In this document: one piece after another, positions 7,967 to 34,323 of the stretch
Layout: every line of letters starts with the position of its first letter
Numbering within the stretch: position 1 is the first letter of the stretch
The notes under the pieces: generated by a model
What the model was told of the DNA's origin: nothing
The model's input: the letters and a program-made list of their open reading frames with translations, nothing else
Database searches by the model: none
Made by a program: the position numbers and the translations under genes
IMG/VR virus record: IMGVR_UViG_3300032265_000225
Location: 1 to 43,780 of that record
DNA from: a virus
Length of the DNA: 43,780 nucleotides
Strand: one strand, 5' to 3'

Positions 7967-7975
7967 GGAATAATT

Positions 7976-8425
7976 ATGTCAACATCATTATATAACAAAA
8001 CAACAATAACTGGAGCGGGAACACCATTAGTACCAGTTACTAGAAAATACAGGGGGTTTAGTACTGTTAACAAGAATAGTAAAAATTTTGCCTTGTATGA
8101 TTTTGAATTAATCAAACAAGATTTATTAAACAGCTTTTATGTAAGACAAGGTGAAAAATTAATGGATCCAGAATACGGATGTGTCATCTGGGACCTGTTG
8201 TTTGAACCATTGACAGCACAGGTCAAGGACTTATTATTACAAAATATAAACGCTATAGTAAATGCAGATCCAAGAGTACAGGCGAGTAATGTTGTTATTA
8301 CACAATACGAAACTGGATTACAACTAGAAATGACTTTGACATACGTAGCTTATAATCTAAGCGAAAATCTAAGGATACATTTTGATCAAAAGGTAGGATT
8401 ACTTGCCTCATCTTTGAAGCAGTAA
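7976..8425 (+). CDS. 25: Baseplate wedge protein gp25 (GPW/gp25 family)
   Basis: Wedge subunit of 149 residues related to the type VI secretion protein TssE. Diagnostic strings are DFELIKQDLLNSFYVRQGEKLMDP cut by YGCVIWDLLFEPLT, then an acidic helix and the closing strand LEMTLTYV. Length matches the family. The ribosome site AAGGAA (7965-7970) overlaps the gp5 stop and lies five bases before the ATG. It precedes gp6, as in T4, where gp25 organises the wedge core with gp6. Confidence 0.92.
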   Translation: MSTSLYNKTTITGAGTPLVPVTRKYRGFSTVNKNSKNFALYDFELIKQDLLNSFYVRQGEKLMDPEYGCVIWDLLFEPLTAQVKDLLLQNINAIVNADPRVQASNVVITQYETGLQLEMTLTYVAYNLSENLRIHFDQKVGLLASSLKQ

Positions 8426-8449
8426 TTAACTACGCACTTAATTTTATTC

Positions 8450-8457
8450 AATAAATA
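8450..8457 (+). promoter_or_regulatory. Late promoter box AATAAATA upstream of gp6
   Basis: It lies in the 50-base gap between gp25 and gp6, 18 bases before the gp6 ATG. An AT-rich dyad (AATTAA at 8424-8429, TTAATT at 8438-8443) just upstream follows the gp25 stop, but it lacks a GC stem and U tract, so I do not call it a terminator. Confidence 0.62.
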
Positions 8458-8475
8458 CTGCTACTAGGAAAAATC

Positions 8476-17900: not shown

Positions 17901-20900
17901 GTCAATGTCGATATTGCAGAATTGTCAGAAGGTCAGTATGTATGGTGTTCGTTTGAAGGTGCTAGCTGGAATATTTACAGATTTACAGATTTGTTAATCC
18001 GAGCTAGCGGTGTTGCATACGATAACGGTGTATTAACAATTACTACACAAAGTATAGTACCGTTGACTGCCGGATCGTATATTGGGTTAAGTCTTGCTAG
18101 TGTTGGCTCTGCACCTTTAGACCCTATCAATGGATTTTATCAAATAGCATCAGTTACTTTAAATTCTTTTACAATTAAGACAACAAAAGCAATCACTTCC
18201 CCGTTTACAAAAACTAATCAGCTTGTTATATTTGCATTAGTATCTCGTAAGATTGATAATATTAATGTTTTAGATTCGTTACCTCTTGCTCATACATTGA
18301 CGGGCGATCTAGTATGGACCGATGACGACGGCTCTGGATCTTGGGCAGTTTGGAAATATGCACCGGTTTACAAGAAAAAAACATTAACAAACCTTAATCC
18401 TCAGAGCGGATTGGCAAACGGATCTTCGATTGCAATGAATGCTCAAGGTACTATACTAGCAGTTGGTAATAGTCAAGGTTATATAACTATATACGATAAA
18501 GTTGGATCTTCTGTAGGATTTACTCAACGAGCTACTCTTACTACACCGTTTCTTGCATTTAATGATACAGTAAACCCAGGTAGAAATGTAAAGCTATCTC
18601 AAGTAGGTACAGTTTTATCTTTAAGTCCAGATGCTACATGGTTAGTTGCCGCCAGCCCGTCAGTAGGATATATTTCTACAACGTTTAAAGGAACATATTC
18701 TAGTACAGTAGCATACCCTATTAACTCAATAGTGTCTGTAACAACTGGCAGTAACATAACTTATTGGCAAGCTGTATCAGCGGTGCCGGCTAATAACATA
18801 CCGTCTATTAATTCAATTTACTGGGAATCAATGCCTTATATTCCAGTAAGTCAAGCAACTGGTGCTAATTCTACATTAGCATCTCAGGGAGTTATAAGTT
18901 TATATAAAAAATCTTCAAATAATGATTATATTTTTATTGATTCAATAATAAGTCCAATACCTACCGCTAACGAACGATTTGGCACCAGTGTCGTGTTTGG
19001 CTCAAATGCGATGTATGTTGGAGCCCCAGGATTTAATAATGGCATTGGTCGAGTATATAAATTCAAATATACAACAGTATCATATGCTAGTACTGTATAC
19101 AATCCTAACGGAAGTTTTAAAAATGTTGTAGCAGTTGCATCGACATCTGGCATACGTGCTGGTATGACTATTAATGGTACAGGTTTTACTAGCGGACAAC
19201 TAGTTGATGCATTATTGATTAAGGTTAGACTGGCCGTAAACTCGGCAGGTAATACAGTTAGTATTAATAACCCAGCACTAAGTCCTACTAACTTGTCAGT
19301 AGGAATGACTGTAACTGGCCCAGGAATTTTATCAGCAGCCAATATATATTCGCTAGGAGCTGAGCAAGTAAATGTTAACGGAGTTTATAAATCTTATAAT
19401 TATGTTATTATATCTAGTCTGCAAGATGTAGATGCATCTATATTAACACAGCTAACATTCAACAGTGATAATAATTTAACATTCTCAGTTTTAGTTCTTA
19501 ACTTTACGCCATCAATAGTTAATTTAAATACATTGTTACTAAATGAACCACCCGATAGTACTCCTAGCGGCACATTAACTTTTACCGAAACTACGTGGGC
19601 TTATGATTTTACATTTAATTTCATAGGAACATCTACAAACACTATTGGTTATACTCTGGCAACCAGTACTGACGGAACTTTCCTAGCTGTTAGTTCTATT
19701 GGTAAAACTGTAAATGTATACAAGGATAATTTACTAGTACAGTCTTTAAATGCTCCACAGAGAGTATCAACTCAAAGCTCTGCAACATCTTGGGGACAAT
19801 CTGTATCGTTTAGCAATGACGGCACATACCTTGCAATAGCAGATCCAATCGCTCCGTTAGGCACATTATACGAAGGGTTAGTAAAATTATATCAGTATAG
19901 TGCTAGTAACAATACGTATTCTTATCTATCAACACTAACAAATCACAATCCTCAACAAAACGGACAATTTGGAAGTGTTATATCCTTCATGAACGACTAT
20001 AAGACTATAGTTGTTTATAGTAAGAACGGTGACACATCAACTATTAGAAATTTTGATAACGGAACAACTACATTTGATAAACAGTCTACAAACTTTACAG
20101 AAACAGAATCTCGTGCCGGCAGAGTAGATATCTATGACATTTATAATAGTATTTGGGTGTTTAGTGAGTCGTTGCCAACAACAAATTTACCTACAGACTT
20201 ATACGGAGTTGGAGTTACTGTAGGATCAAATAATGTAGTCGTTAGTGCGCCTGGAGCATTAGATGGTAATTTGTTGTCGGGACAGATTTATAGCTATAAC
20301 AAGCAACCAACTACGTATGCATGGTCAATATCTCGCCGTCAAAATACGTCCGCCGATGTTAGTAAAATTAAAAAAGCCTTTATATACGATAAAAAATTAG
20401 AAACTTTGACAACATATCTCGATGTCATTGATCCCTTGCAAGGAAAAATAGCAGGCCCAGCAGAAGAAGAGTTATCATTTAAAACTTATTATGACCCTGC
20501 TACATATAGTTATAGTGTTGCATCTGATGCTACAAGTGATGCTATCAGTTATTGGGATTCTCCGCAAGTAGGAAAATTATGGTGGGATTTAAGAACTTGT
20601 AAATTCCAAGAAAATCGTTTTGACGATTTTAACTATAGAAATAATACATGGAACACACTTGCAACCGGCGCTTCGGTAGATATTTACGAATGGGTCGAAA
20701 GCACATTAAAACCTAGTAGTTGGGATGCAATAGCAGATACACCAAACGGATTAACAAAAGGTATAAGCGGCAAGAGTTTATACGGCGATACTGCGTATAG
20801 TATATTAGAAAAATACGATACTACAAGTAAAATTTTCAATAACTTATACTACTTCTGGGTAAAGAATAAAAAAATAATACCAAACGTACAAGGTCGGTAT

Positions 20901-23900
20901 ATGGCGGCAAACGATGTAGCCATGCTCATTTCAAGCCCTCGCGAGCAGGGATATGCCTGTTTAGCAATTACAGGTGTTGATTCGTTTAGTCTTATAAATT
21001 GTGCCAAATATCTAAAAGATTTAGATCGAGTACTAGCTATAGAATACTGGACTACTGAAAAAACAGACCAACCAATCCATAGTCAATGGAGTTTAATTAG
21101 TAACGATGCGATTGTAGATCTTCCTCCTACGATTGAAGAAAAATGGATTGATAGTTTGTGCGGTGTTGATACAAATGGCAGAGCCGTACCGGACCCAGTA
21201 TTACCAACAAAACTTCGTTACGGAATTGAAAATCGTCCTCGTCAAAGTATGTTTATCAACAGAATAGAGGCATTAAAAGAATTTATAGAACGTGTAAATC
21301 GTGTTTTAATTACTCAACAGATAGTCGAATCTAGAAATATACACAATTTAGAGTTAAAAGATCCAACCCCAACAACTCTAAGCGGACTTTATGATAGATC
21401 CTATGATACCTATTTAGATTTTACAACTAATCAAGGTGCAGTATCATTCACATTACCAGTTCTTAAACCAGTAATTGTAAACGGTAGAATTAAATCTGTT
21501 ACTATAACTAGTGCAGGTAAGGGTTATATAATTGCTCCAACAATATCTGTAGTAGGATCGGGAGAAAATGCTATTGTATCTTGTAAAATTAATACAGCAG
21601 GACAAGTTACATCGGTTAGTATTCAAAACGAAGGTTATGGATATGATAGCACCACTCAGTTAGTTGTAAGAAACTTTTCTGTTCTTGTAAAAAGTGATTC
21701 TACTAATGATAATCTTTGGGGTATTTACGGATTTAATTCTATTGACAAAGTGTGGAGTAAGACACTTACACAATCTTATGATGTAAACAATTACTGGAGT
21801 AAAGTTGATTGGTACCAAACAGGATTTAGTCAATACAGTGCCGCCGATTTTGCAGTGCCTACACTTGCTGACCTTACAACAATAAAAGTTTCAGTAGGAC
21901 AACTTGTAAAAGTCTTAACTGCCAATTCAGGAGGCTGGCTATTATTAGAAAAATATGCAGATTCTAATTCAGTTGATTATATACAGTCTTATCGAACTGT
22001 TGGTATTCAGGAAGGTACAATACAGTTCTCGACAAAATTATATAGACTGCAAAATACAAATGTAGGATATGATTCTAATGTATTTGATAACGGCGATTTT
22101 GATGTTCAAGCAGTTACAGAACTTAGAATAATATTGAATACTATTAAAAATAATATTTTAATAGGTGACCTTAAACAGGAATATTTAAATTTATTCTTGG
22201 CCAGTGTTCACTATGTGCATTCAGAACAATTATATGTTGATTGGATTTTTAAAACTAGTTTTGTTCGTGCAACGCATAATGTTGGACAACTAGATCAACC
22301 TGTAAATTACCCTGTAGATAATTTAATTAATTTTGAAGACTATGTAGCAGAAGTTAAACCATATAGAACAAAGGTTAGACAATATATTAGTCAATATTCA
22401 AATTCATTACTACCTGACCTTAATGCCAGCGCCGTCACAGATTTTGATTTGCAGTCAAGTCCGTACGAGGTATTAACATCGTATCCATGGAAATTTTGGA
22501 ATGATAATCACGGGTATAAAATTCTTGATATCAAAGTAACTAGTGGCGGAAGTGGCTATGTGATTCCTCCGCAAGTAATAATAGATGCACCTACAGGACC
22601 GTCTTCTAAACAGGCAAAAGCTGTAGCATTTATACGAAATGGAAAAATTACCAGTATCAGTGTAACTGTACACGGAGCCGGATATGTAGTTACTCCTACA
22701 ATTATTCTTGACGGTGGACTTAACATTGGCGGTACACCTGGTACGGCTGTTGCTATTCTAGGCGACAGTGTTGTTAGATCTACTAAAACAGAATTGCGTT
22801 TTGATAGAGTTGATCAAAATTATTATATGATTGATTTGTCAGCTACTGATACATTTACCGGTACAGCAAGTCTAGTACAGTTTGTTTTAACATGGGCACC
22901 TGATATTAGAATTGGCAAAACTACAGTTTTAATCAATAATGTTCCTGTACTTCGAGAGTTGTACACACTAGCAATTACTACTGACAAATCTCTTGGCTAT
23001 ACAAAATATGCCGGAAAGATTACATTTAAAACAGCGCCACCTAAAAATGCATCTGTAGTTGTCAAATATTATAAAGACATAACAATTCTCAATGCCGCAG
23101 ACAGAATACAATATAGTTATAATCCTACAGTAGGACAGTTAGGCAAGGATCTTACACAACTAATGACTGGAATGGATTACGGCGGTGTAACAGTTAGCGG
23201 ATTAGGATTTGATGTTGGTAACGGATGGGGAGTTAACGGATACTGGACTGATAAGTGGGATTCAAGGGATCCAACATTTACAGATTACATAGTACAAGTA
23301 AATGCGAATACAACGGTATTTACATTACCATATATTCCTCCAACAGGAACAAAAATTAATGTTTACTGGAAAAAACTAGCAAATATTACGTATACATCCA
23401 ATGGCACTACTTTAAAATATCTTGTTGATAATTCTATAACAGATCAACAAGTATCTATAGTTACAACTGCTAATACTGTAGCTAGGACTGCTAATTATGT
23501 TGCTGCCGGTAGCGGAGGCTTTACAGTAAAAGTTAATAGCACTGCTAATTTGTTGGCAGGAATGTATATTTCTGGATTGGGATTCTTGTCTAGACAATAC
23601 ATTATCAGAGTTGTAGACAGTACTACACTAACAGTTAGTGCTATACCAGATACTACTAGTTTGCAACGTGCTTATGTTTCTAATGGAAGTTCTGGCACTA
23701 CTATTGTTGTTAACACTACAAGAAAGTTAGTAGTTGGTATGCTAGTGTCTGGTGTAGGAATAACACAAGGTCAGCGTATAGCTAATATTATAGATTCTAC
23801 GCAATTAGTTCTAACATCAATTCCAGATGGTGTACTAACAGATACAGAATTATTAACATTTAGTTCTTTACCAACTAACGGTTCGCCATTGACTTTTAGT

Positions 23901-26900
23901 AATATTGCCGGAACTAGTACTTTAAATCTCAATTCAGTTGCTGGTATTAAAAAAGGTAGTATTGTTACTAACTCTTTAATTTCTGCAACATCAATGGTTA
24001 TAGGGACAAAATATACAATACAATCGCTTGGAACAACAGATTTTACACTAGTTGGAGCAACTAGTAACTTGCTAGGTTTAACATTTATAGCAACTGGTGT
24101 CGGTACTGGTACAGGTAGTCTAGCTACTGCTAGTGTATTTGCATATAACACTGTAGTTACACATGTCGATACATTGACTAGCACAGTTACTTTAAATAAT
24201 ATTGTATTTGCTAATATTCTTGCCGGAACACAGTTAACATTTATACAGGCATTAACTGAGTTGATAGATGTAGCTTATAGTTCTGGATATATAACACTTC
24301 AGCAAGCATATACTGCCGGGTCTAAAATACAAATATCAGGATTCTATCCAAGTGTTAGACTAGATGCGTTAGACTTTGACGGATCTACATCGGCAACAAA
24401 CCCTACTGCTATTATACCAACTCCGATCGTTGGATCATCAATTTATACACCAACAGTAATTGAAGGCGGTGCAAATGGTGCAACTTCTATTGTTGTAACA
24501 GTTGTAGACGATGGCGGCGGTGCCGCAACGGCAAGTCGAGTAGTTATTGACGGTAATCAGATAGATACGAATATTATAAATGTTATTGAATTACCTCCTA
24601 CCTTTGTAGTAAGTACCGGCGACGAATTTATTTTACGTCAAAGTACAAGTGACGGTAGTATTGCTCCAGCAGATAACGATTATGATACATTAATATCTGG
24701 AGGCGATCTTGCCTATGCAACTGCAAAAGGTATCCTAGCAGACGATATTATTATAGACGGTGACGGCTTAGTGACACCAACATCGAGCCCAGCTCCAGAA
24801 GAAGTAGTTCCTGGACAGGTAGTAGATACCGTTGCTATTAAAGTATTTGATCAAGCGGCATCCGGATCTGCTAACATCAAGGTAGTGACCTACACAGGCG
24901 ACGGCAACACACGAACATTTGCTATTGGCCAAACTCCAAATAGTCAACGAGCTGTTATTGTTCGCTTTGGTTCTACAATACTAACTTATAATACTGATTA
25001 TCTAATTGATTATAGAAATAACAATATTATTTTTATTAAGAAAACAGATCCTATAACATTGGTGGTTACAGATAAAACTCCTAGTGCAGGACAGAATATT
25101 ATTATTTCTAGTATAGGATTCAATGGTAGTAATGTATTAGATATTGATTACTTTATTGGGGACGGTACTACTAAAGAATTTATAACTAGTGCAAAATTTA
25201 ATAACTCAGTAACAGCATTGATATATGTCGACGGTGTGGCTAACAATGCATTTATATTCCAAACTGATACAACATACTTGCAAAGTAACCAAATTGGTTT
25301 AAGATTTACAGACGCACCCGCAGTAGGCGCACTTATAAATTATGTTATAGTTTCAGGTAACCAACAAACATTTGCTGTTACAACAACTGAAAAAGTCAAT
25401 ATAGCTAAACTTGTGACGGCACAAGATGGATCTGCATCTTACAAATTAACTTATCCAATTGGTAATTCGTTACCAAACGAAGGTAATATGATTGTTCGTG
25501 TAGGATCTAGTATATTACAAGGGCCAATCAACAGTTATTTTACTATAGGTAAGAATAAATTAACCTATACAGTTGATCCAACAAAAGCCATACCAAATAG
25601 TGTACCTGCGGCTAATGTATTAGTGTATGCAAACGGATATAAACTAACCCCAGGAACGGACTATACTGTAGATGTAACGGGTATATCAGTTAAAATTACA
25701 CGTAGTGTGTATTCAACTTATGCAGGACAACAATTGACTATAAGTTTAACAAGCTCACAAACTTATAGCTATGATTCTTCATCTTCTACAATTACACTTG
25801 CCGCATCTGCAATTTCGTCAACTACTAACACAATTGATCGAACTGCTATCTCTCTTGATAATACCAGTGTGAAACTAGATAATATATCTGTTGGAGTTGG
25901 TACTGTGATAGAAGTGATAGCAAACTATGTACATGATATTTTAGATATACAGCGTACTACAGTTTCGTATTCTTCTTCGTACTCATTAACGCCAGGAACT
26001 AGCTTATTCTATACCTATACTAATATTTTAGGCGGGTATATTACACTTGATAGATCTGTACTTGATCCAAGTTATGTATGGGTAATTAAAAATAGTAACC
26101 TAATGACACCAAGCATTGATTATAAGTTGAATGATGATTTGCAAAGTATACAGATACAAAAACCCCTTGCAAAAACAGATAAAATTGAGATAATCACATT
26201 CCCAAGTGCAATTTTGCCACAGCAGAAACTTTCATATATGCAGTTTAAAGATATGTTGAATAGAGTAACATATATTCGATTGAACGCAAATAAAGTTACA
26301 ACGTTGGCAAAAGATCTATACTGGAACGACTTAACCATTGTAGTGGATGATGCAAGTAATTTTGATGTGCCAAACCCAGCAGGAAATAAACCAGGTGTTA
26401 TTGAAATTCGCGGCGAGCGTATAGAATACTTCACCAAGAGCGGAAATGTACTGGGGCAATTACGTAGAGGTACTCTAGGAACAGGTATTACAAATATAAA
26501 TCCAAAAGGCGAAACCGTACAATTTATTGGCGCCAGCGAAGTTATTCCGTATAAAGATACGCTGACAACTGCAACTGTAACATCTACAGGTTCTACAACA
26601 CTATCATTACCATTTGTTCCAAAACTTACAACTACAAGTACTTTAGCAACACAACATAATTACGATACTATTGAAGTGTTTGTAGGCGGCTGGAATATAC
26701 AAATGTGGGAGACTAACACACCATATGCAGTTGGAGATATAGTACAAGTAGGATCTTATACCTATAATTGTACAACATCACATACAAGTTCTGCAGATTT
26801 TGCAACGGACTTAGGTAACTGGGAGTTTTTTGTAGCTAATACACGTTTAAGAAAAAATTCTTACAATGTGTTTAACGTTAATAATGCTCCTTATAGCCCA

Positions 26901-27203
26901 GCCGGAGATGTTACATTCCCAGCAGATTTTTCAGTAACTGGCACAACAGCCGCTATTACATTTGCTACTGCACCCGCATTTGGTACACAGGTTAATGTTG
27001 TTCAACGTAATGGTATTGACTGGGACGGAAAACAAACTAGTAGTTTAATACTTGACACCGGAGCAGTGGCCAGCTTTGTAAAAGCAGTACCTGGAGTATG
27101 GTATACTGGCTATAAACAAATAAGTAATATATCAAACCCAACGTTTGACACCTCAAATGCAACAGTTGATGCAGGTAATATAACGTTTGACCAAGGAAAT
27201 TAA
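11973..27203 (+). CDS. Giant baseplate/tail structural protein at the gp7 position (5076 aa)
   Basis: A single uninterrupted frame of 5076 codons. The N-terminus (LPDFYQTPANKKFLQ, FFKDYQDYINQLGVFG, EFYSWDPHIDWDKFVNF) and a core at about residues 2870-3155 (LWWDLRTCKFQENRFDDFNY, YEWVESTLKP, RYGIENRPRQSMFINRI) match the very large baseplate protein found after gp6 in marine T4-like phages. T4 gp7 has about 1030 residues. Added modules seen: a cupredoxin-like domain (176-269); five carbohydrate-binding-like segments (near 1430, 1560, 1740, 2240, 4910); FG-GAP-like propeller blades (2150-2780); GxGY repeats (near 3170 and 3520); short VGMxVxGxG repeats; and a GTTDFT module (4008-4050). The C-terminal third carries VVPGQVVDT, GERIEY and LGQLRRGTLGTG, also common in phage tail proteins. 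Equivalence to gp7 is by position, not proven. Confidence 0.72.
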   Translation: MANENNPTGKASLGINFLPDFYQTPANKKFLQSTIDQLYQPGTLTKTSGFIGRKNAKAAKGSDVYVKSANTTRQNYQLEPSLTVKDSLGNTTFFKDYQDYINQLGVFGANTTRHDRLNKQEFYSWDPHIDWDKFVNFQNYYWLPYGPDPINIYGQPINVESTYTVNVESTGNSNQYVFTPDGFAPNPILKLYRGQTYTFEISSEGNPFSIKTARSIGITNRYITSDISEYAIESGVLVFTVPADAPSILFYQSETDINLGGAIEIHDITDASILDVEKDLLGKKSYSLSDGTLLSNGMKLKFNGNVFPTSYAKGLYYVEGVGVAIKLVAEKTLEIVSPYTTSQNILFDDTPFDQYPFDDAAGFSSLKDYVVINRASQDHNPWSRYNRWFHKDVINASAMYNGTTASLDQTARANRPIIEFEADLKLYNLGTTAIADTDLIDDFTTDVFSLIEGSRGYNVDGVALAPGYRVLFTADLDPLVNGKVFEVSFINISGYGQIHLTEVSSPVLNQNTIILKGLQNQSSTYWYNGTKWVKGQQKTNTNQAPLFDIVDSNGVSYSDTTVYDGSTFKGTSVFCYKVSSTGSKDTVLGFPLSYQNVNNIGDIVFSFNLASDTFQYKIKTNTITKSISSGYLLGKDYAGNDRYLNGWQISKATAVQAGVRIYKDSNQTNNFNIDIFDDINNLSDLVVKVYINGVYIQPVNYNIVNSSVYKSIVLLKDISLTDILTIKVYSTQTINSNGYYEIPLNLQNNPLNDSMLDFTLGEVSDHVESIIENISTFVGVFPGASNLRDLGNITQYGTKFVQHSGPASLSQYHITSESHNIIKAIEHSRNDYGSFKRNFIEIAGSLGLNTDTITHVDLVLQKLNANKPKTAPYYFSDMVPYGASVVTDLTVVDYRIKNYPLSAVFSLDSLSNKAVGIYHTVTSTSKKTQLVYGRDYTFNNQGYINIQSSVVLSTGDIITTIEYDNTDGCYVPETPTKLGLWPKFVPQIYTDTTLITPLQIIQGHDGSHVLAYGDYRDDLLLELETRIYNNIKVTYDASIFDVNDIVPSYNRPQDYTLEEFNQVLAPYFYQWAGLVGVDFSQHISFDRTNSFTYNYSSNKSPAQTTIPAYWRGIYRYILDTDRPNICPWEMLGFSIEPSWWTQVYGPAPYTSDNLILWTDLANGLVRNPNVPPYTLAKYKKPFLLKHIPVDSSGNLISPLVSGLAQGTITQNIDNNFVFGDVGPVEAAWRRSSYYPFSVLLASMLLTPAKTFGVLLDRSRIVRNSAGQLVYKDTNLRIRPADVVVPNIYATSTRVQTAGIINYVVNLITNIIFSNNLDSYNAYKTDLQNLTPRLSYRLSAFTNKSQFNLLLESKTPLATGNVFIPTESYSVFLNSSSPVTKLTYSGVVLTKLSTGFEIKGYSNSQPYFKYYSYFGTGTAVNVGGISDSYVDWTPNQQYISGQIVKYATNFYIAKIAITAGASFQANNFTKLDSLPIVGGANAYFRTHWDKDTELTAPYGTVFTTIQEVVDFLLGYEQWLIDQGFVFEEFNNNLAVVANWQTSAKEFMFWTTQNWSTGQQYWSDWLPSQPYTYGTIVRHDGSYYSAAFNLPVNPVFDATQWTLLAGLTNIGGSVISLSPAANGVSFKTNLTVVDDITNIFNNYEFFKVDGSTIKPTELDSYRNGNIVTYSPRTTDGIYGATFYLIQNEHVIIIDNIDIFNDVIYSPTSGYRRDRIKVSGYITNDWYGGLDIPGFIFDSAKIASWQPYTDYSLGDIVYYQGNYYSATAGLAGSVSFVPSYWNKLTKAPTSELLPNWTNSATQFVDFYSLNVDNFNPQHQQFAQHLIGYQSRQYLHNIIQDPVSEFKFYQGMIREKGTKNVLNHLFGVLNTDKVDSLTFYEEWALRVGRYGASDAFEDIEIVLDETLFKNNPQGYALVERKNNNISSFVIQQTPNDIYVKPLGYNSLPFPTSTNLTPLLRNSGYVNPADVKFSLKSISDIVNVDIAELSEGQYVWCSFEGASWNIYRFTDLLIRASGVAYDNGVLTITTQSIVPLTAGSYIGLSLASVGSAPLDPINGFYQIASVTLNSFTIKTTKAITSPFTKTNQLVIFALVSRKIDNINVLDSLPLAHTLTGDLVWTDDDGSGSWAVWKYAPVYKKKTLTNLNPQSGLANGSSIAMNAQGTILAVGNSQGYITIYDKVGSSVGFTQRATLTTPFLAFNDTVNPGRNVKLSQVGTVLSLSPDATWLVAASPSVGYISTTFKGTYSSTVAYPINSIVSVTTGSNITYWQAVSAVPANNIPSINSIYWESMPYIPVSQATGANSTLASQGVISLYKKSSNNDYIFIDSIISPIPTANERFGTSVVFGSNAMYVGAPGFNNGIGRVYKFKYTTVSYASTVYNPNGSFKNVVAVASTSGIRAGMTINGTGFTSGQLVDALLIKVRLAVNSAGNTVSINNPALSPTNLSVGMTVTGPGILSAANIYSLGAEQVNVNGVYKSYNYVIISSLQDVDASILTQLTFNSDNNLTFSVLVLNFTPSIVNLNTLLLNEPPDSTPSGTLTFTETTWAYDFTFNFIGTSTNTIGYTLATSTDGTFLAVSSIGKTVNVYKDNLLVQSLNAPQRVSTQSSATSWGQSVSFSNDGTYLAIADPIAPLGTLYEGLVKLYQYSASNNTYSYLSTLTNHNPQQNGQFGSVISFMNDYKTIVVYSKNGDTSTIRNFDNGTTTFDKQSTNFTETESRAGRVDIYDIYNSIWVFSESLPTTNLPTDLYGVGVTVGSNNVVVSAPGALDGNLLSGQIYSYNKQPTTYAWSISRRQNTSADVSKIKKAFIYDKKLETLTTYLDVIDPLQGKIAGPAEEELSFKTYYDPATYSYSVASDATSDAISYWDSPQVGKLWWDLRTCKFQENRFDDFNYRNNTWNTLATGASVDIYEWVESTLKPSSWDAIADTPNGLTKGISGKSLYGDTAYSILEKYDTTSKIFNNLYYFWVKNKKIIPNVQGRYMAANDVAMLISSPREQGYACLAITGVDSFSLINCAKYLKDLDRVLAIEYWTTEKTDQPIHSQWSLISNDAIVDLPPTIEEKWIDSLCGVDTNGRAVPDPVLPTKLRYGIENRPRQSMFINRIEALKEFIERVNRVLITQQIVESRNIHNLELKDPTPTTLSGLYDRSYDTYLDFTTNQGAVSFTLPVLKPVIVNGRIKSVTITSAGKGYIIAPTISVVGSGENAIVSCKINTAGQVTSVSIQNEGYGYDSTTQLVVRNFSVLVKSDSTNDNLWGIYGFNSIDKVWSKTLTQSYDVNNYWSKVDWYQTGFSQYSAADFAVPTLADLTTIKVSVGQLVKVLTANSGGWLLLEKYADSNSVDYIQSYRTVGIQEGTIQFSTKLYRLQNTNVGYDSNVFDNGDFDVQAVTELRIILNTIKNNILIGDLKQEYLNLFLASVHYVHSEQLYVDWIFKTSFVRATHNVGQLDQPVNYPVDNLINFEDYVAEVKPYRTKVRQYISQYSNSLLPDLNASAVTDFDLQSSPYEVLTSYPWKFWNDNHGYKILDIKVTSGGSGYVIPPQVIIDAPTGPSSKQAKAVAFIRNGKITSISVTVHGAGYVVTPTIILDGGLNIGGTPGTAVAILGDSVVRSTKTELRFDRVDQNYYMIDLSATDTFTGTASLVQFVLTWAPDIRIGKTTVLINNVPVLRELYTLAITTDKSLGYTKYAGKITFKTAPPKNASVVVKYYKDITILNAADRIQYSYNPTVGQLGKDLTQLMTGMDYGGVTVSGLGFDVGNGWGVNGYWTDKWDSRDPTFTDYIVQVNANTTVFTLPYIPPTGTKINVYWKKLANITYTSNGTTLKYLVDNSITDQQVSIVTTANTVARTANYVAAGSGGFTVKVNSTANLLAGMYISGLGFLSRQYIIRVVDSTTLTVSAIPDTTSLQRAYVSNGSSGTTIVVNTTRKLVVGMLVSGVGITQGQRIANIIDSTQLVLTSIPDGVLTDTELLTFSSLPTNGSPLTFSNIAGTSTLNLNSVAGIKKGSIVTNSLISATSMVIGTKYTIQSLGTTDFTLVGATSNLLGLTFIATGVGTGTGSLATASVFAYNTVVTHVDTLTSTVTLNNIVFANILAGTQLTFIQALTELIDVAYSSGYITLQQAYTAGSKIQISGFYPSVRLDALDFDGSTSATNPTAIIPTPIVGSSIYTPTVIEGGANGATSIVVTVVDDGGGAATASRVVIDGNQIDTNIINVIELPPTFVVSTGDEFILRQSTSDGSIAPADNDYDTLISGGDLAYATAKGILADDIIIDGDGLVTPTSSPAPEEVVPGQVVDTVAIKVFDQAASGSANIKVVTYTGDGNTRTFAIGQTPNSQRAVIVRFGSTILTYNTDYLIDYRNNNIIFIKKTDPITLVVTDKTPSAGQNIIISSIGFNGSNVLDIDYFIGDGTTKEFITSAKFNNSVTALIYVDGVANNAFIFQTDTTYLQSNQIGLRFTDAPAVGALINYVIVSGNQQTFAVTTTEKVNIAKLVTAQDGSASYKLTYPIGNSLPNEGNMIVRVGSSILQGPINSYFTIGKNKLTYTVDPTKAIPNSVPAANVLVYANGYKLTPGTDYTVDVTGISVKITRSVYSTYAGQQLTISLTSSQTYSYDSSSSTITLAASAISSTTNTIDRTAISLDNTSVKLDNISVGVGTVIEVIANYVHDILDIQRTTVSYSSSYSLTPGTSLFYTYTNILGGYITLDRSVLDPSYVWVIKNSNLMTPSIDYKLNDDLQSIQIQKPLAKTDKIEIITFPSAILPQQKLSYMQFKDMLNRVTYIRLNANKVTTLAKDLYWNDLTIVVDDASNFDVPNPAGNKPGVIEIRGERIEYFTKSGNVLGQLRRGTLGTGITNINPKGETVQFIGASEVIPYKDTLTTATVTSTGSTTLSLPFVPKLTTTSTLATQHNYDTIEVFVGGWNIQMWETNTPYAVGDIVQVGSYTYNCTTSHTSSADFATDLGNWEFFVANTRLRKNSYNVFNVNNAPYSPAGDVTFPADFSVTGTTAAITFATAPAFGTQVNVVQRNGIDWDGKQTSSLILDTGAVASFVKAVPGVWYTGYKQISNISNPTFDTSNATVDAGNITFDQGN
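12499..12780 (+). other. Cupredoxin-like domain with lost metal ligands inside the giant protein
   Basis: Residues about 176-269 follow the pattern of the cupredoxin-like domain common in large phage structural proteins: LKLYRGQTYTFEI, GNPFSIKT, FTVPADAP, LFYQS and GGAIEIHD. Where copper-binding versions have GHPF and a C...H pair near the end, this one has GNPF and Ser/Asp. It is therefore probably a structural beta-sandwich only. Moderate confidence, by motif only. Confidence 0.5.
18421..20310 (+). other. FG-GAP-like beta-propeller region inside the giant protein
   Basis: Residues about 2150-2780 contain six or seven blade-like repeats, for example RFGTSVVFGSNAMYVGAPGF ending GRVYKF, GQSVSFSNDGTYLAIADP ending GLVKLYQY, FGSVISF ending GRVDIYDI, and GVGVTVGSNNVVVSAPGA ending GQIYSY. 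These resemble FG-GAP repeats of integrin-type propellers. A carbohydrate-binding-like segment (about 18685-18834) and two VGMxVxGxG modules (about 19141-19380) interrupt blades. Confidence 0.55.
23995..24120 (+). other. GTTDFT protein module inside the giant protein
   Basis: Residues about 4008-4050 read MVIGTKYTIQSLGTTDFTLV, continuing GATSNLLGLTFIATGVGTGTG. This short module is one I know from many unrelated phage structural proteins (pattern YTIxSxGTTDFTxIGAxxNxxGxxFxATGxGTGTG). It lies beside VGMxVxGxG repeats and looks like an exchangeable unit. Function unknown. Confidence 0.6.
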
Positions 27204-27204
27204 C

Positions 27205-29784
27205 ATGACGCAACAGATTATTAACACGGGAACAACAGCCAATTCAGGAACAGGGGATACATTACGTACCGCCGGTACAAAAATTAATGCAAACTTTACT
27301 GAATTGTATACAACCCAGTACCAGTTGCCAAATCAAAATAATAATGCAGGTAAAGCACTTATAACAAACGGTGCGGTAGCTACATGGCAACCTATAACAG
27401 TAACTAATGGCGTATTAACAACTGGTAGTTATAGTGATCCTAGCTGGATTACAAGCCTTAGTTATAGCAAAATTTCAGGAGCACCAGGCGCCTATACATT
27501 GCCAATAGCAAGCACTAGTACATTAGGCGGTGTTAAAGTTGACGGAACCACAGTTGTAGTTAATGGAACAAATGGTGTAATTAGTAGTGTAGTCCCAACT
27601 GCTACTACATCTACTATTGGTGGCGTTAAAATTGACGGAACAAGTATTACAATTAATAACGGAGTTATATCGGCATCTTCTTATAATCTACCAACAGCAA
27701 GTACAAGTGTATTGGGCGGTGTTAAAGTTGATGGTACAAGTATTACAATTAGTAATACTGGAGTTGTTACTGCAACTCCATATTCTTTGCCGCTTGCTAC
27801 AAGTTCAACACCAGGCGGCGTCATTGTAGATGTAAGTACAATCAGTATTAACAATGGTGTTATTACTGCTGTTCCAGCTAACATTCGTAGTATTGCCGCC
27901 GCAATGCTAACAGGCGGCTCACAAACTGGAATAAGTTTTAGCTATAATTCAACAACCGGATTAATGACAACTGCGGTAACAGGCGGCGCAGGCGGCTCTG
28001 GCATATCGGGAGTAACAGTTCAACAAGCTGGTAGCACACAAGGCGGAGCAAATGCAATTACTACACTTAATTTCACCGGTGCTGGAGTTACTGCAACTGC
28101 TTCGGGTAGTGTAGCTACTTTAAATATTCCTAGTACATCTTACACATTGCCTACTGCTACTGTTGGAACTAGCGTATCGGGTACACTAGGTGGTGTTAAA
28201 GTTGATGGTAGTACAATTACTGTTACCTCGGGTGTAATTAGTAGTGTTATTCCTATAGCTAGCACTAGTACACTAGGTGGTGTTAAAGTTGATGGTAGTA
28301 CAATTACTATTAGTAACGGTATAATTAGTTCTGCACCATACACACTTCCTACAGCTAGTACTAGTACACTAGGTGGTGTTAAAGTTGATGGAACTACGGT
28401 TGTTATCAATTCAGGAACAGGCATTATTAGTAGCGTTGTCCCAGTAGCTACAACTTCTACAATTGGTGGGGTCAAAGTTGACGGATCTAGTATTACAATC
28501 AACAACGGAGTAATTAGTGCTCCTACTGGATATGTATTGCCTACATCTAGTCCAACAGTATTGGGCGGTGTAAAAGTTGATAACTCAACAATAACTATTA
28601 ATGGATTTGGAGTTATAAGTGCCGCTCAGTATACATTACCTATGGCTACTGATACAACACTTGGCGGTGTAACAATACCCGCGGTACAAACATCTGGTAT
28701 AGTAGAAAATTCTGGAGCAATCAGTATAGCAACAGCCAGTGCAACACAACTTGGTGGCGTAAGAATTCCAGCAGTTGGCACTAGCGGTATCACTAATGCT
28801 AGCGGATCACTTGGCCTTGCTACTGCAAGTACAACACAGCTTGGCGGTGTTAAAGTTGACGGTACTAGTATTACAATTAGCAATGGAGTTATTAGTGCGC
28901 CAACAGGTTACGTGTTACCAACAGCAAGTACAAGTGTATTAGGTGGTGTTAAAGTTGACGGTACAAGTGTAACAATAACTAATGGTGTAATTACTTCTAA
29001 TATTACATATAGTCTTCCAACAGCCAGTGTTACCACATTAGGGGGTGTTTACATTCCCGCAGTTGCAACAAGCGGTATTAATAACTCAACAGGTACAATT
29101 ACACTAGCAACTGCAAGTACAACACAAATTGGCGGCGTTAAAGTTGACGGTACCACAATTAATATTTCTAGCGGTGTTATCAGTGTGCCAACTGCTGGCA
29201 CAACTACTCTTGGAGTAGTAAAAGTTGATGGTACTAGTATTACAATTAATCCTGTCACCGGAGTTATTAGCGGTGCTAGCACATATACATTGCCAACAGC
29301 AAGTACAAGTGTATTGGGCGGTGTTAAAGTTGATGGTAGTACAATTACTATTAGTAACGGTGTAATAAGCTCGTCTGGGGGCGGTGGTGGAGGCACACTA
29401 AGTAGTAGGACAACTGTTCAAACTACTACTACAAGTTTAGCAGTTGGAGCCAGCGTAACGGCAACTGTGACAGCGGCTAAAGGATATGCACTATATAATA
29501 TATCTTGCACATCTGGCGCCTGGGTAACAGTTTATACAAGTAGCACAGCACAGTCTAATGATAGTAGTAGAAGTATTACAACTGATCCAGCACCAGGCAG
29601 TGGTATAGTTGCAGAATCAATAACAACTGGTAATACTGCCACGTCAACAGATTTTACTCCGGCCGTTATGGGATTCAACAACGATGGTACTCCAAGTACA
29701 AATATGTATTTGAAGATTTATAATAATGGTGGAGTAACTGGTACTATCACAGTTACAATTACATATCTTAAACTAGAAGCATAA
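27205..29784 (+). CDS. Repeat-rich tail fibre/adhesin protein
   Basis: Fibre-like virion protein of 859 residues. The N-terminus (INTGTTANSGTGDTLRTAG, then KINANFTELY) is a common phage fibre/attachment start. Then come 17 copies of a ~30-residue repeat with core STxLGGVKVDGTxITIxNGVIS, in places preceded by LPTA; four copies have IPAV or another core in place of VDG. They are interrupted by a Gly-rich insert after the fourth copy. A Gly run leads to a distinct C-terminal domain of ~130 residues (SRTTVQTTTTSLAVGASVTA ... TITYLKLEA), likely the tip. The frame opens at a TTG (27187), but the ATG at 27205 has AAGGA (27193-27197) seven bases upstream and clears the stop of the giant gene, so I use it. 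Ligand unknown. Confidence 0.75.
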   Translation: MTQQIINTGTTANSGTGDTLRTAGTKINANFTELYTTQYQLPNQNNNAGKALITNGAVATWQPITVTNGVLTTGSYSDPSWITSLSYSKISGAPGAYTLPIASTSTLGGVKVDGTTVVVNGTNGVISSVVPTATTSTIGGVKIDGTSITINNGVISASSYNLPTASTSVLGGVKVDGTSITISNTGVVTATPYSLPLATSSTPGGVIVDVSTISINNGVITAVPANIRSIAAAMLTGGSQTGISFSYNSTTGLMTTAVTGGAGGSGISGVTVQQAGSTQGGANAITTLNFTGAGVTATASGSVATLNIPSTSYTLPTATVGTSVSGTLGGVKVDGSTITVTSGVISSVIPIASTSTLGGVKVDGSTITISNGIISSAPYTLPTASTSTLGGVKVDGTTVVINSGTGIISSVVPVATTSTIGGVKVDGSSITINNGVISAPTGYVLPTSSPTVLGGVKVDNSTITINGFGVISAAQYTLPMATDTTLGGVTIPAVQTSGIVENSGAISIATASATQLGGVRIPAVGTSGITNASGSLGLATASTTQLGGVKVDGTSITISNGVISAPTGYVLPTASTSVLGGVKVDGTSVTITNGVITSNITYSLPTASVTTLGGVYIPAVATSGINNSTGTITLATASTTQIGGVKVDGTTINISSGVISVPTAGTTTLGVVKVDGTSITINPVTGVISGASTYTLPTASTSVLGGVKVDGSTITISNGVISSSGGGGGGTLSSRTTVQTTTTSLAVGASVTATVTAAKGYALYNISCTSGAWVTVYTSSTAQSNDSSRSITTDPAPGSGIVAESITTGNTATSTDFTPAVMGFNNDGTPSTNMYLKIYNNGGVTGTITVTITYLKLEA
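28279..28320 (+). repeat. Exact 42-bp direct repeat, copy 1
   Basis: Identical to 29320-29361 by direct comparison. The copies are 1041 bp apart, a multiple of three, and in the same frame. Confidence 0.9.
29320..29361 (+). repeat. Exact 42-bp direct repeat, copy 2
   Basis: Identical to 28279-28320. It encodes part of the GGVKVDGSTITISNG unit just before the Gly-rich linker and tip domain. Confidence 0.9.
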
Positions 29785-29785
29785 T

Positions 29786-31360
29786 ATGACTACAAGTACT
29801 CCAAAAAATCTTGATGATATTATATTGATTAGTGTCTATCTCAAAAGAGATTTGCATGAGAACGGCATGACTTTGCAAGAGTATGCTGATGGAGTAATAG
29901 CTGGTACACATGCAGTATTGGATCATGACGAATACATTTATCAATTTGGTTCTACCGAAGATGCAACTATAGAAGTGAATGATTTTTTCTATCATAATAA
30001 CTTTACTATCGTAGAAGCTAGTCGTGGTAAGGGTGTGGTACAGATTACAGGTACTATAGAAAATTTTAATAAAACATTTGGAATAACATTGTTAGATGTT
30101 ACTGATGACACTGGTCGAACTTACATGATGTACGAAGGTACTATAACAATTCCAAATGAAATTGATAGCCTGGTTGAATCTATTCAAGGTTTTGATCAAA
30201 GTTTTTTAGCAGTAAAAAATGCAGTTATATGCGATGCTGATACTGTTGATCCGTTAGTATCAGTTACTCCTGTACAAATGGCAACTGCATATGGTATGCC
30301 GCCTGGAAATGGATATGGCGGGTGTATTGGAATTTTTGAATTAACTTATAGCGGATATGTTACCGGTTATAATCAAACGGATGTTACAAATAGTTTTTCT
30401 CGTATTGGACTTACTGCTCCTACAATAGTTAATATAAATGTAGATGGGGCTACAGTTAGTTCAACTAGTGATGCCGAAAGTATGTTGGACATTTATTGTG
30501 CCGGCGCAATATCTCCAAGATCTCGAATAGCATACTATACTGCTCCTAATACCGGAACTCAAAGTATTAATGATAATATTCTTGCCGCCGCAAATGATAC
30601 AACAAATAACCCATCAGTACTTGATATTAGTTGGGGGATAGGTGACGGTACTCAGTATGACACTGCACTACAATCTTGTGTTGTAAAAGGTATAACAGTA
30701 TTTGTCAGCTCAGGAGATAGCGGTGCAGTTAATTTAAGTATGGCCGCAACCTGTTGTAGTCAATACATTGTTTCAGCAGGTGGCACCAGTGTGTATCTTA
30801 ACGGCAGTAATCAAATTACTAGCGAAGTAGCTTGGAGCGGCAGCGGCGGCGGAATCAGTGCGTATGTGTCATTGCCTAGTTGGCAAACTGGACTAACCAC
30901 GACAACTAAAACAGCAAGTTCAACAGGCACACCGACTGTATTACCAAGACGTGGAGTTCCAGACATAAGTGCTCCTGCCGATCCTAATACAGGGTTTGCA
31001 TATTTTATTAACGGTGTTCTTAATCAAGTTGGCGGAACAAGTGCTTCTGCACCATTGTTAGCAGGTATGTGGGCTCGATTCAACGCTCAGTTAGGATTTA
31101 GAATACCGTTTAATATGACTACTTGGTACTCAAACAGAGCATTGTTGTTTAACGATATCACTAGCGGCGACAACAGAGACGGGTATACTACAGGTTATAC
31201 TACAACTACAGGTTGGGATGCTGTTACAGGATTAGGTACTCCAAAAGCTGATCAGATATACAAATATTTCCATACAGGAAGTACTTTTCCAAAACAAAAT
31301 TACGGGTTTAGGCCAGCTTCAGGGCATGCTTATCCACGAAAAACAACAGGTGTTAGATAA
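29786..31360 (+). CDS. Sedolisin-family serine-carboxyl peptidase (S53, kumamolisin-like) with pro-domain
   Basis: Predicted endopeptidase of 524 residues. Residues about 35-150 look like the pro-kumamolisin activation domain (DEYIYQFGSTEDATIEVNDF, then GTIENFNKTFGI). The mature-like part starts near VTPVQMATAYGMPPGNGYGG. The catalytic pair E231/D235 lies in AESMLDIYCAGAISP, the oxyanion Asp is D311 in SSGDSGA, and the nucleophile S419 is in GGTSASAP. A conserved SWG is present. The C-terminal calcium loop is recognisable as DITSGDN ... GWDAVTGLGTP. All residues needed for activity in kumamolisin seem to be there. No signal peptide or membrane segment. It sits between two fibre/structural genes, one base after the preceding stop, so it may be a virion protein that cuts host surface protein or matures fibres; both roles are inference. 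Confidence 0.88.
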   Translation: MTTSTPKNLDDIILISVYLKRDLHENGMTLQEYADGVIAGTHAVLDHDEYIYQFGSTEDATIEVNDFFYHNNFTIVEASRGKGVVQITGTIENFNKTFGITLLDVTDDTGRTYMMYEGTITIPNEIDSLVESIQGFDQSFLAVKNAVICDADTVDPLVSVTPVQMATAYGMPPGNGYGGCIGIFELTYSGYVTGYNQTDVTNSFSRIGLTAPTIVNINVDGATVSSTSDAESMLDIYCAGAISPRSRIAYYTAPNTGTQSINDNILAAANDTTNNPSVLDISWGIGDGTQYDTALQSCVVKGITVFVSSGDSGAVNLSMAATCCSQYIVSAGGTSVYLNGSNQITSEVAWSGSGGGISAYVSLPSWQTGLTTTTKTASSTGTPTVLPRRGVPDISAPADPNTGFAYFINGVLNQVGGTSASAPLLAGMWARFNAQLGFRIPFNMTTWYSNRALLFNDITSGDNRDGYTTGYTTTTGWDAVTGLGTPKADQIYKYFHTGSTFPKQNYGFRPASGHAYPRKTTGVR

Positions 31361-31412: not shown

Positions 31413-32024
31413 ATGCAGAGCAAAGATCAAACAGGAATTCACGTAGAAGGGCATATCAAAATTTTTGATCCCGTTTCTAAGGAAGTTTATATCGATAAAC
31501 GCAATGCCATTCATTATGAAAATATGAGTTATGCTCTAGCACAAAGTTTAGCTAATAGTGTAAACGGTGGATTCATTTATCAAATGTCGTTTGGCAATGG
31601 CGGAACAAGTGTTGATCCTACTGGAATTATTACATATCTTACACCCAACACTAGCGGTACTAATGCAAGTTTATACAATCCTACATATAGTAAAGTTATA
31701 GATCCTAATGCCGCAACTAATACTGATCCTACACGAAATTTTACAGAAGTAAGACATACAACTGGCTATAATTATAGCGATATTTTCTGTACTTGTTTGT
31801 TAGATTACGGCGAGCCTAGCGGTCAGGCCGCTTACGATACCACTAATACTGGCGAACAAACTTTTATCTTTGATGAACTTGGTCTTGTAAACTATAGTGC
31901 ATCTGGTACAAATTTATTGTTAACCCATGTAATATTTCACCCTGTACAAAAAAGTCTTAATAGACTTATACAGATAGATTATACTGTACGTATCCAAAGC
32001 CTAACAGGCTTGGTAAGTGTATAA
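31413..32024 (+). CDS. Conserved T4-like virion structural protein
   Basis: A 203-residue protein of a family I recall from marine T4-like tail-fibre regions but cannot name. Conserved-looking segments are YALAQSLANSVNGGFIYQMS, the FGNGGTSVDPTGIITYL stretch, YNPTYSKVIDPNAATNTDP, LLDYGEPSGQ, FDELGLVNY and THVIFHPVQKSLNRLIQIDY. These suggest a compact beta-rich protein, perhaps a fibre connector or baseplate decoration. It follows its own late box, and AAGGAG at its 3' end serves the next gene. Function not known. Confidence 0.62.
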   Translation: MQSKDQTGIHVEGHIKIFDPVSKEVYIDKRNAIHYENMSYALAQSLANSVNGGFIYQMSFGNGGTSVDPTGIITYLTPNTSGTNASLYNPTYSKVIDPNAATNTDPTRNFTEVRHTTGYNYSDIFCTCLLDYGEPSGQAAYDTTNTGEQTFIFDELGLVNYSASGTNLLLTHVIFHPVQKSLNRLIQIDYTVRIQSLTGLVSV

Positions 32025-32034
32025 GGAGAATTAG

Positions 32035-34323
32035 ATGCCATATACCGTTCCGTATACAGACTCAACTAACCCTGCTAAACCAGCTATAACAGTAGCCGAT
32101 GGTGCGTTAAACAACCAAACTAGTTTAACTTTTGTTGGTAAAAATTATGCAGGCTATGCTCCAATACATGCCGCCGACTTTTTACACTTATTAGAAAATT
32201 TTGCGGCTCCGGTCGCACCTACTAATCCAGTTCAAGGCCAATTATGGTATGATACAGCACTAGGCAATAATATTCTTCGTGTCTATGACGGCGCTGGCAC
32301 ATGGAATGAGGCAGGATCTATCAAGAGAGCTGGTGTTGCTACATTAGGAGCTACTGGTGGTGTACCCGATGTTACTAATGCTACAACAGGCGACTTGTGG
32401 GTAGACACTGATAACAGCCAGTTGTATTTGTTTTCAGGAAGCAGTTGGTTATTAATTGGACCACAATTTAGTGCAGGTAAAGCAACGGGCCCGTTGGTCG
32501 AATCGATAGTTGATACTGGTAATGTAACACACAGCGTTGTTAGTCTATATGCCGCCAGAACTTCGGACACTTCGGCGTATCGTATTGCAATTATTAGTGC
32601 AGATTCATTTACTCCTAAAACTACCCTAACAGGTTTTGGTATAATTAATGCAGGATTAAATTTATCTTCAACAATTTCTACAGATTCATCTCAGACTCCT
32701 ACAAATATTTGGGGAAATGCTCAAGCCGCCAATGCTCTTAATGTAAATGGTGTTGCAGTTTCAGCCGCTAATTTTTTAAGAGGCGATGCCAGTGCAGGTA
32801 ATAGTCAAACGACCTCTAATGTTCCTATTAATATTAGAAACACCGGCGGACTTGGTATTGGCGGAGATTTAAGTTTCAATATTAGTCAATCTACATCAGG
32901 GTTTGTTTTTAATAGTACTAGTAGCACTAATAGTGTAGATTTTATTTTAAGTGGTACTAATCTAATCCACCTTTCTCCATCAGGAACTGTTGGTATTGGT
33001 AATGGAAATACATCACCGTCTTCTACACTTAGTGTGGCAGGTGTAATTACATCAGGTGCCGTTAATACTTCTGGAGGAATTATTGTAAAATCTTCTTCAG
33101 GCGGAATATTAACAACTGTTTTCAATCTAGATACTTCAGCAGGAATTACAACTAGTTTAGCAACTACTATTACAAATACAATTACTGCAAACGGAATTGT
33201 AATTAGTTCTGCGGCACCATCGGGAACTGTAATTAGTCCACCGCCATTGGCTAACAATGCTACAAGTAATTACGATATTGGTAGTCAAACAAACCCGTTT
33301 AGAAATGTTTATGCTCAATCATTTGTCGGCAGCTTCAACGGTAACTTTACAGGAAGTGTTACGGGAAGTGTAAGCGGTACCGCAGACAGTTTAAAAACAC
33401 CAATTGTATTTAAAGTAGCTGGTGATCTTATTACTAGTGATACTGGTACAGTGTTTACAGGACAAAGTCCTACCGGTGTTGCAACATTAAATGTGACAGC
33501 TAGTACTTCTCTTATTATTGGAACAATTGACGCTCCAAGAGCATCTGCTACTTCTACATCGTCCGGAGATAAATTCCTAGCTTACCAAACAACCGGCGGC
33601 GGCAAGTTGGTATCTATGGACAAGGCTACATATTTAAAACTGGATCCAACATTATTGCATAGCGGTTACGGAGTTCCGGTAGGAACAATCGTAGCTTGGG
33701 GCGGATCATCAATTAGTTTAAATGGAGTTCCTCCAGGTTGGTTATTATGCGATGGCGCCGAAGTAAAACAAACAGATTATCCTTCACTGTATAAGGTAAT
33801 TGCACTCAATTTTACTCCGCCAGGTGGCCTGCAAGGAAAAAATACATTTGCGTTACCAGATTTGCGTGGAAGATTCCCACTAGGTAGAGATAATATGAAT
33901 AATCTTACCGATGTAAATAATTTTGCCCAAGTTTTAAATGATGCGGGTAGTAAAATATTAACAGGCGGCCAGAAAGGCCCAGCCAATAGAGTTCAAGATT
34001 CTAGTTCAATTGTTGTAGGCGGCTACGGAGGCGGCCAGTATGTTACACTGACAACGGCTAATTTACCAGCTCATAGTCATACATTGACTAGTAGTACTGG
34101 TAATCAGTACTATGCTGTAAGTAGTATTACATCGGATGGCGATGCAAATACTGTAGCAGGCTACGGTATATCAGGTTTACCATCAGGAACTGCTAAAGGA
34201 CTTAAGAGTAGCGGCAATGTTAATTATACTGGTTCAGGTACTACAACAGGTTCAGCAGGTGTTAACATTATGAATCATTACCAAACAGTAAACTATATCA
34301 TCTTTTCTGGATCTAATCTATAA
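32035..34323 (+). CDS. Tail fibre protein with phage tail collar domain
   Basis: Fibre protein of 762 residues. The N-terminal ~190 residues (TSLTFVGKNYAGYAPIHAAD, LLENFA, GQLWYD, DLWVDTDNSQLYLF, SADSFTP) form a domain shared with the next two genes and probably attach to the virion. The middle is Ser/Thr/Asn-rich with a TLSVAG segment and a NPFRNVYAQSF motif typical of fibre shafts. The C-terminus has the tail collar domain (VGTIVAWGG, GVPPGWLLCDGAEV, DYPSLYKVI, FALPDLRGRFPLGRD) and a Gly/His-rich tip (LPAHSHTLTSS, then NIMNHYQTVNYIIFS). Such tips bind host surface molecules in many phages. AAGGAG at 32023-32028 precedes the ATG by six bases; the stop forms TAATG with the next start. Confidence 0.82.
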   Translation: MPYTVPYTDSTNPAKPAITVADGALNNQTSLTFVGKNYAGYAPIHAADFLHLLENFAAPVAPTNPVQGQLWYDTALGNNILRVYDGAGTWNEAGSIKRAGVATLGATGGVPDVTNATTGDLWVDTDNSQLYLFSGSSWLLIGPQFSAGKATGPLVESIVDTGNVTHSVVSLYAARTSDTSAYRIAIISADSFTPKTTLTGFGIINAGLNLSSTISTDSSQTPTNIWGNAQAANALNVNGVAVSAANFLRGDASAGNSQTTSNVPINIRNTGGLGIGGDLSFNISQSTSGFVFNSTSSTNSVDFILSGTNLIHLSPSGTVGIGNGNTSPSSTLSVAGVITSGAVNTSGGIIVKSSSGGILTTVFNLDTSAGITTSLATTITNTITANGIVISSAAPSGTVISPPPLANNATSNYDIGSQTNPFRNVYAQSFVGSFNGNFTGSVTGSVSGTADSLKTPIVFKVAGDLITSDTGTVFTGQSPTGVATLNVTASTSLIIGTIDAPRASATSTSSGDKFLAYQTTGGGKLVSMDKATYLKLDPTLLHSGYGVPVGTIVAWGGSSISLNGVPPGWLLCDGAEVKQTDYPSLYKVIALNFTPPGGLQGKNTFALPDLRGRFPLGRDNMNNLTDVNNFAQVLNDAGSKILTGGQKGPANRVQDSSSIVVGGYGGGQYVTLTTANLPAHSHTLTSSTGNQYYAVSSITSDGDANTVAGYGISGLPSGTAKGLKSSGNVNYTGSGTTTGSAGVNIMNHYQTVNYIIFSGSNL

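Follow-up and report, generated by a model that had tools for sequence, protein, structure and literature searches.

A kumamolisin-type S53 peptidase gene paired with a tail fibre gene in a phage tail operon

The locus and its peptidase

The window, by which we mean the whole stretch of viral DNA that was analysed (43,780 nucleotides), carries a series of tail genes and, among them, a gene for a peptidase of family S53, the sedolisins. The features that matter for this gene are the following.

6401 to 11973, + strand: baseplate genes, namely hub/tail lysozyme, gp25-like wedge and gp6-like wedge (PHROGs)
11973 to 27203, + strand: giant virion-type protein of 5076 aa, upstream of the accessory pair, in the position of the Phosso virion structural gene (13.7 kb)
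27205 to 29784, + strand: repeat tail fibre (the ORF as listed starts at TTG 27187)
29422 to 29781, + strand: FIBC domain, the final ~118 aa of the fibre and common to S53- and S8-paired fibres; predicted protease-docking domain
29786 to 31360, + strand: S53 (sedolisin/kumamolisin-type) peptidase gene, 524 aa (Pfam, phmmer, structure model)
29828 to 30196, + strand: pro-kumamolisin activation domain, residues 15-137 (PF09286, 5.4e-11)
30260 to 31270, + strand: S53 catalytic domain, about residues 159-495 (alignment to 1gt9/1t1e, invariance)
30476, 30488, 30716 and 31040, + strand: codons of the catalytic residues E231, D235, D311 and S419
31154 and 31217, + strand: codons of the calcium-site residues D457 and D478
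31286 to 31357, + strand: phage-specific C-terminal tail FPKQNYGFRPASGHAYPRKTTGVR, which tracks FIBC fibres; predicted docking peptide
31413 to 32024, + strand: conserved 203-aa gene, phrog_11259 (1e-69), forming the downstream boundary of the accessory pair
32035 to 34323, + strand: tail collar domain protein (PF07484, 1e-15)

The fibre gene stops at 29784 and the ATG of the S53 gene begins after a gap of 1 bp; downstream come the 203-aa gene and then the tail-collar protein. An earlier note on this DNA had placed the protease in a T4-like tail operon, between a repeat fibre and a structural gene, and the tail-operon setting is borne out by the baseplate hub and lysozyme, gp25- and gp6-like wedges, fibres and collar present in the window. 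For the fibre, the ATG at 27205, just past the stop of the giant gene, is the likelier start when compared with the TTG at 27187. Scans for promoters and terminators flanking the S53 gene gave results at or below chance. The giant ORF has weak matches to the carbohydrate-binding module CBM_5_12 and to beta-propellers.

The window also encodes a late sigma factor and several fibres, and the best matches of its wedge protein and its 203-aa gene are in Sinorhizobium phage Phosso, Agrobacterium phage Atu_ph07 and other jumbo phages. The published description of Atu_ph07 presents this phage as a relative of the Rak2-like phages (PMC6102473). The window comes from a giant freshwater phage, a jumbo myophage of the Rak2/Atu_ph07 type. 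In Phosso the 203-aa gene directly follows the giant structural gene, the fibre and S53 pair being absent, and in Atu_ph07 just two small ORFs separate the corresponding genes. Since these flanks adjoin or nearly adjoin, the fibre and S53 genes can be regarded as an accessory pair between conserved genes.

The ORF at 29786-31360 starts with ATG, has no internal stops and encodes a full-length sedolisin of the kumamolisin type. Pfam finds the activation domain PF09286 (Pro-kuma_activ) at 43.4 bits (cut-off 23.5), phmmer aligns residues 10-488 with pro-kumamolisin (PDB 1t1e) at 3.2e-59, and a profile built from 19 homologues reaches 4e-85. An AlphaFold2 model calculated from 66 diverse sequences has a pLDDT of 93 and supersedes an earlier, poor model from 19 close sequences (pLDDT 61); its top PDB fold match is again 1t1e (TM 0.81, E 1e-42). 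Thus, the reading of the earlier note, a complete S53 protease with its pro-domain, holds on two of the checks that it had proposed, the Pfam search and the comparison of a predicted fold with that of kumamolisin. PHROGs and NCBIfam searches gave no family for the protein. The subtilase family PF00082 also matches, more weakly (8e-7), because S8 and S53 peptidases have a common fold; an assignment to S8 was rejected, as the Asp-His-Ser triad is absent, a Glu-Asp-Ser set stands in its place and the kumamolisin match is far stronger. The viral folds closest to the model in BFVD are S53-like proteins of the giant eukaryotic viruses Homavirus, Barrevirus, Terrestrivirus and Sylvanvirus, among them A0A3G5A7D9 and A0A3G4ZQ87 (Homavirus, Barrevirus).

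The likeness to kumamolisin (1t1e, 1gt9) extends over the full length of pro-domain and catalytic domain, at about 30% identity, and includes the E-D-S triad, the oxyanion Asp and the calcium-site Asp. The phage protein differs in lying in a tail operon, in its paired fibre gene, in its extra C-terminal RPxxGxxYPR tail and in having no signal peptide. Cellular sedolisins are mainly secreted enzymes, and a secretion signal is common in bacterial and fungal S53 members, though it does not define the fold or mechanism; the window protein has none, as the earlier note had stated, since homology to the pro-domain begins at residue 10-15 and leaves no space for one.

Counted along the 1t1e/1gt9 alignment, kumamolisin E78, D82, W129, D164 and S278 correspond to E231, D235, W283, D311 and S419 in the window, and the calcium ligands D316, I317, G334, G336 and D338 to D457, I458, T474, G476 and D478, the change from G334 to T474 affecting a main-chain ligand. 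The triad, the oxyanion residue and the calcium loop that had been read from the sequence therefore match kumamolisin exactly at the residues named, and they are strongly conserved: E231, D235, D311, S419 and D457 are each invariant in 80/80 viral homologues, D478 is kept in 79/80 viral loci, and an alignment of 66 phage and cellular sequences (A2) has E231, D235, S282, D311, S419, D457 and D478 invariant. Across the 80 viral loci, no more than 29 of the 313 columns of the domain show no variation at all, and pairwise dN/dS among close S53 relatives is 0.05-0.21. Invariant catalytic residues together with low dN/dS indicate that the protein and its active site are both being preserved and that the gene is no relic, and we predict from this conservation that the enzyme is catalytically competent.

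Distribution, fibre pairing and C-terminal tail of phage S53

A tblastn search with three types of phage S53 against 50,697 deposited phage records found no S53, in keeping with the earlier remark that a copy in such a tail operon would be unusual. The search for the same gene in related phages that had been proposed shows that it is no lone curiosity either: in IMG/VR, 30 loci were found by protein query and 106 candidates by alignment query, of which 80 were retained, so that S53 occurs on at least 80 environmental viral contigs (up to 345 kb in related viruses), mostly directly behind fibre genes. S53 domains, 34 of them from phages and 32 cellular, were placed in one tree; those of phages form one side of a branch with support 100/99, and a midpoint-rooted drawing places them among bacterial sequences. 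A single capture of S53 from bacteria would be the simplest reading of this tree, whose root was not inferred.

Phage S53 proteins come in three architectures: pro-domain plus S53, as in the window; a ~410-aa form without pro-domain; and a fused form with long C-terminal regions that contain cadherin-like and Ig-like domains. The ~410-aa clade (L051-L067, L071-L073, L076-L078) keeps all catalytic residues. Cellular kumamolisin requires its pro-domain, and we considered whether a neighbouring gene could supply it in this clade; this found no support at the six loci listed, where the upstream gene is the fibre, with no gene between, although a pro-domain might still be encoded elsewhere in the genome. 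One 860-aa S53 (L045:9989-12571) has an insert of more than 200 aa that splits the halves of the calcium site, followed by a cadherin-like domain. Three adjoining genes close to the fibre and S53 genes on a phage contig of 345 kb (L059:1075-5718) have N-termini that by eye resemble tryptophan-halogenase-type flavoproteins.

The S53 gene lies directly behind a FIBC-ending fibre in 68 of the 80 viral loci as well as in the window, nearly always with a 1-bp gap, and this pairing persists where the remaining neighbourhood differs. Nine loci (L045, L047, L048, L050, L069, L070, L074, L075, L079) have no FIBC fibre directly upstream, and in a further three (L025, L040, L081) the upstream gene is beyond the contig end or not judgeable for FIBC.

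S53 proteins behind FIBC fibres carry a tail of the form FPKxNYGxRPxxGxxYPR, either terminal or before a further extension; in the window, where the 1-bp gap behind a FIBC fibre is also found, the core of this tail reads RPASGHAYPR. The tail occurs in no cellular homologue of the set and is lacking in the nine phage S53 without FIBC fibre and in L081, and seven S53 behind FIBC fibres (the L022-type clade and L038) have it in degenerate form only. The core pattern matches 71 of 2,620 open frames, compared with 1.0 on average when the sequences are shuffled, and 67 of the 71 matches are directly behind a FIBC fibre, counts that are descriptive and do not constitute a test, because the pattern was written after viewing these sequences. 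In the S53 tree, the link between FIBC and tail amounts to 2-3 independent changes. From this co-occurrence we infer that FIBC docks the RPxxGxxYPR tail. The other four matches are the S53 of L040, at a contig end, and three small cyanophage genes (L164:5277-5519, L165:7905-8138, L167:7599-7832), whose products of 77-80 aa end in the tail. Each lies one position past the large client of its FIBC operon, and these three cyanophage operons are precisely the ones in which that client is tail-less; the small proteins may be adaptors that provide the tail in trans.

S8 subtilases in the same slot

The fibre of the window finds its matches among deposited phages mostly in cyanophage fibres, via the FIBC region, and the gene ~1 bp after a cyanophage FIBC fibre is often an S8 subtilase. 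Such FIBC-S8 pairs are found in S-CAM1, S-RSM4, S-CREM1, S-MbCM7, ACG-2014e, S-H38 and S-H9-1 (behind its second FIBC fibre), and the S8 proteins carry the tail, in variant form in S-RSM4. The stretches read of S8 proteins without FIBC (Atu_ph07, Phosso, S-SCSM1_228 and L182) contain no tail; L182 is a separate 523-aa S8 subtilase on the same phage contig as the pro-domain-less S53 of L059. The rule was then fixed beforehand and tried on 11 unseen S8 loci: the strict tail was present in five of the six with FIBC upstream, the sixth having a degenerate YPR, and in none of the five without, although several of the phages are closely related and the effective sample is smaller than the nominal one.

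The cyanophage enzymes (S-H38 gp095, S-CREM1_165, S-CAM1 SXBG_00005, S-WAM2 gp058) have in common with the window S53 the slot, the type of tail and a related subtilisin-like fold; they differ in that PF00082 is well over its cut-off and PF09286 is absent, and in that their hosts are marine picocyanobacteria. Non-protease proteins occupy the slot behind the FIBC fibre in some cyanophages. A second connection between the families involves the long scaffolds: over its last ~400 aa, the fused S53 L048 is homologous to the C-terminal region of the S8 proteins of Atu_ph07 and Phosso (E 2e-10). These S8 proteins (gp329 in Atu_ph07) belong to related jumbo phages and adjoin fibre-type genes, but unlike the window S53 they have a long fused scaffold, lie elsewhere in the genome and carry no tail. 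Both in the slot behind FIBC and on the long scaffold, S53 and S8 domains thus appear to have replaced each other, and the two families may well be interchangeable fibre-tip proteases.

These relatives also bear on whether the phage S53 is part of the virion. According to the published description of Atu_ph07, the virion proteins identified by mass spectrometry fall mostly in three clusters, one of which ends at CDS 329 (PMC6102473). CDS 329 is the S8 protease, and gp329 itself was probably among the proteins detected; the long Ig-like scaffolds of the fused S53 are common to this probable virion protease. For S-SCSM1, whose virion proteome was measured by mass spectrometry (PMC9602691), the record labels as virion proteins SSCSM1_228, which contains an S8 domain, the FIBC fibre SSCSM1_231 and its neighbour 232. 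An association of S53 with the virion is suggested only indirectly, by the fibre pairing, the tail motif, the fusions to Ig-like scaffolds and the S8 relatives labelled as virion proteins.

A possible role during adsorption

We consider it reasonably probable that the tail anchors the zymogen to FIBC at the end of the fibre and that the enzyme breaks down a protein of the host surface as the phage adsorbs. Infected cells would produce the sedolisin as a zymogen that lacks a secretion signal, its RPxxGxxYPR tail would dock on the FIBC domain that terminates the fibre whose gene lies 1 bp upstream, and the protease would in this way join the virion. Once mounted there, and perhaps active in acidic surroundings only, it would digest an S-layer protein, a glycoprotein or an outer-membrane protein during adsorption; in cyanophages, S8 subtilases would take its slot. 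The zymogen step would not be universal, given that one clade lacks the pro-domain.

Characterised sedolisins are acid-pH enzymes, and an acid-pH optimum could prevent S53 from acting in the cytoplasm. L043, one of the relatives, is from the hypolimnion of Trout Bog, a lake of pH 4.8 (PMC5636890), but this is the one IMG sample traced, which makes the idea of an acid habitat only suggestive. An enzyme on the adsorption apparatus has a parallel in the capsule depolymerase tailspikes of RaK2 type (PMC10253068), which would work alike in opening a path to the cell. The parallel is one of function, the depolymerases being polysaccharide-cutting beta-helix enzymes and not peptidases.

Three other readings fit less well than a fibre-docked protease. 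The first, which we regard as unlikely, is that S53 cuts the fibre, or some other protein of the tail, while the virion matures, without necessarily remaining in the particle. The position of the gene directly behind the fibre gene would suit such a function, and a role in virion maturation has been proposed for peptidases that are specific to groups of jumbo phages and encoded among their structural genes (PMC7824862). However, a tail that tracks FIBC, non-protease occupants of the same slot and the Ig-like scaffold fusions better fit a structural attachment, and Phosso and similar phages are without the fibre and S53 pair. The non-protease occupants in some cyanophages would rather agree with a second reading, in which the protease fold mainly binds a surface protein at the fibre tip and catalysis is not needed. 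The slot is indeed that of tip adhesins, T4-type gp38 being a tip adhesin encoded behind the fibre gene, but we hold this to be quite improbable in view of E231, D235, D311 and S419, which are unchanged at all 80 viral loci down to ~30% identity to the window protein, even though so few columns of the domain are fully conserved. That S53 instead acts outside the virion, either unattached within the cell or once lysis has occurred, with host proteins or surface debris as possible targets, is the least probable reading: it would resemble the secreted cellular sedolisins, and release at lysis is compatible with the data, but the absent signal peptide, the surrounding tail genes, the fibre pairing, the tail motif and the virion label of the S8 counterpart in S-SCSM1 all speak against it.

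The fibre-docked protease may, more generally, be one instance of a plug-in arrangement in the T4 superfamily, in which FIBC captures enzymes or adhesins with an RPxxGxxYPR tail and in which the S8 enzymes of marine cyanophages and the S53 enzymes of jumbo phages from fresh water (at least one such phage from an acidic lake) are exchanged to strip host surface protein. We put this forward tentatively, at somewhat less than an even chance.

Searches of the open-access literature for a phage sedolisin, kumamolisin or peptidase S53, and for a virion-associated protease, returned nothing relevant, and our analysis adds tailed phages to the range of peptidase family S53, with no earlier report in the literature and phage records searched. 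What is new here is the pairing with FIBC fibres together with a phage-only tail, and the fact that S8 and S53 share both FIBC and tail. This pairing of tail and FIBC offers a simple rule for finding such enzymes and is perhaps a modular means to hold enzymes on phage fibres. The known phage tail enzymes that clear a path to the cell are mostly polysaccharide or peptidoglycan cutters. A fibre-borne endopeptidase, if true, would give phages a different means of entry, and it could account for their passage through S-layers and other protein coats.
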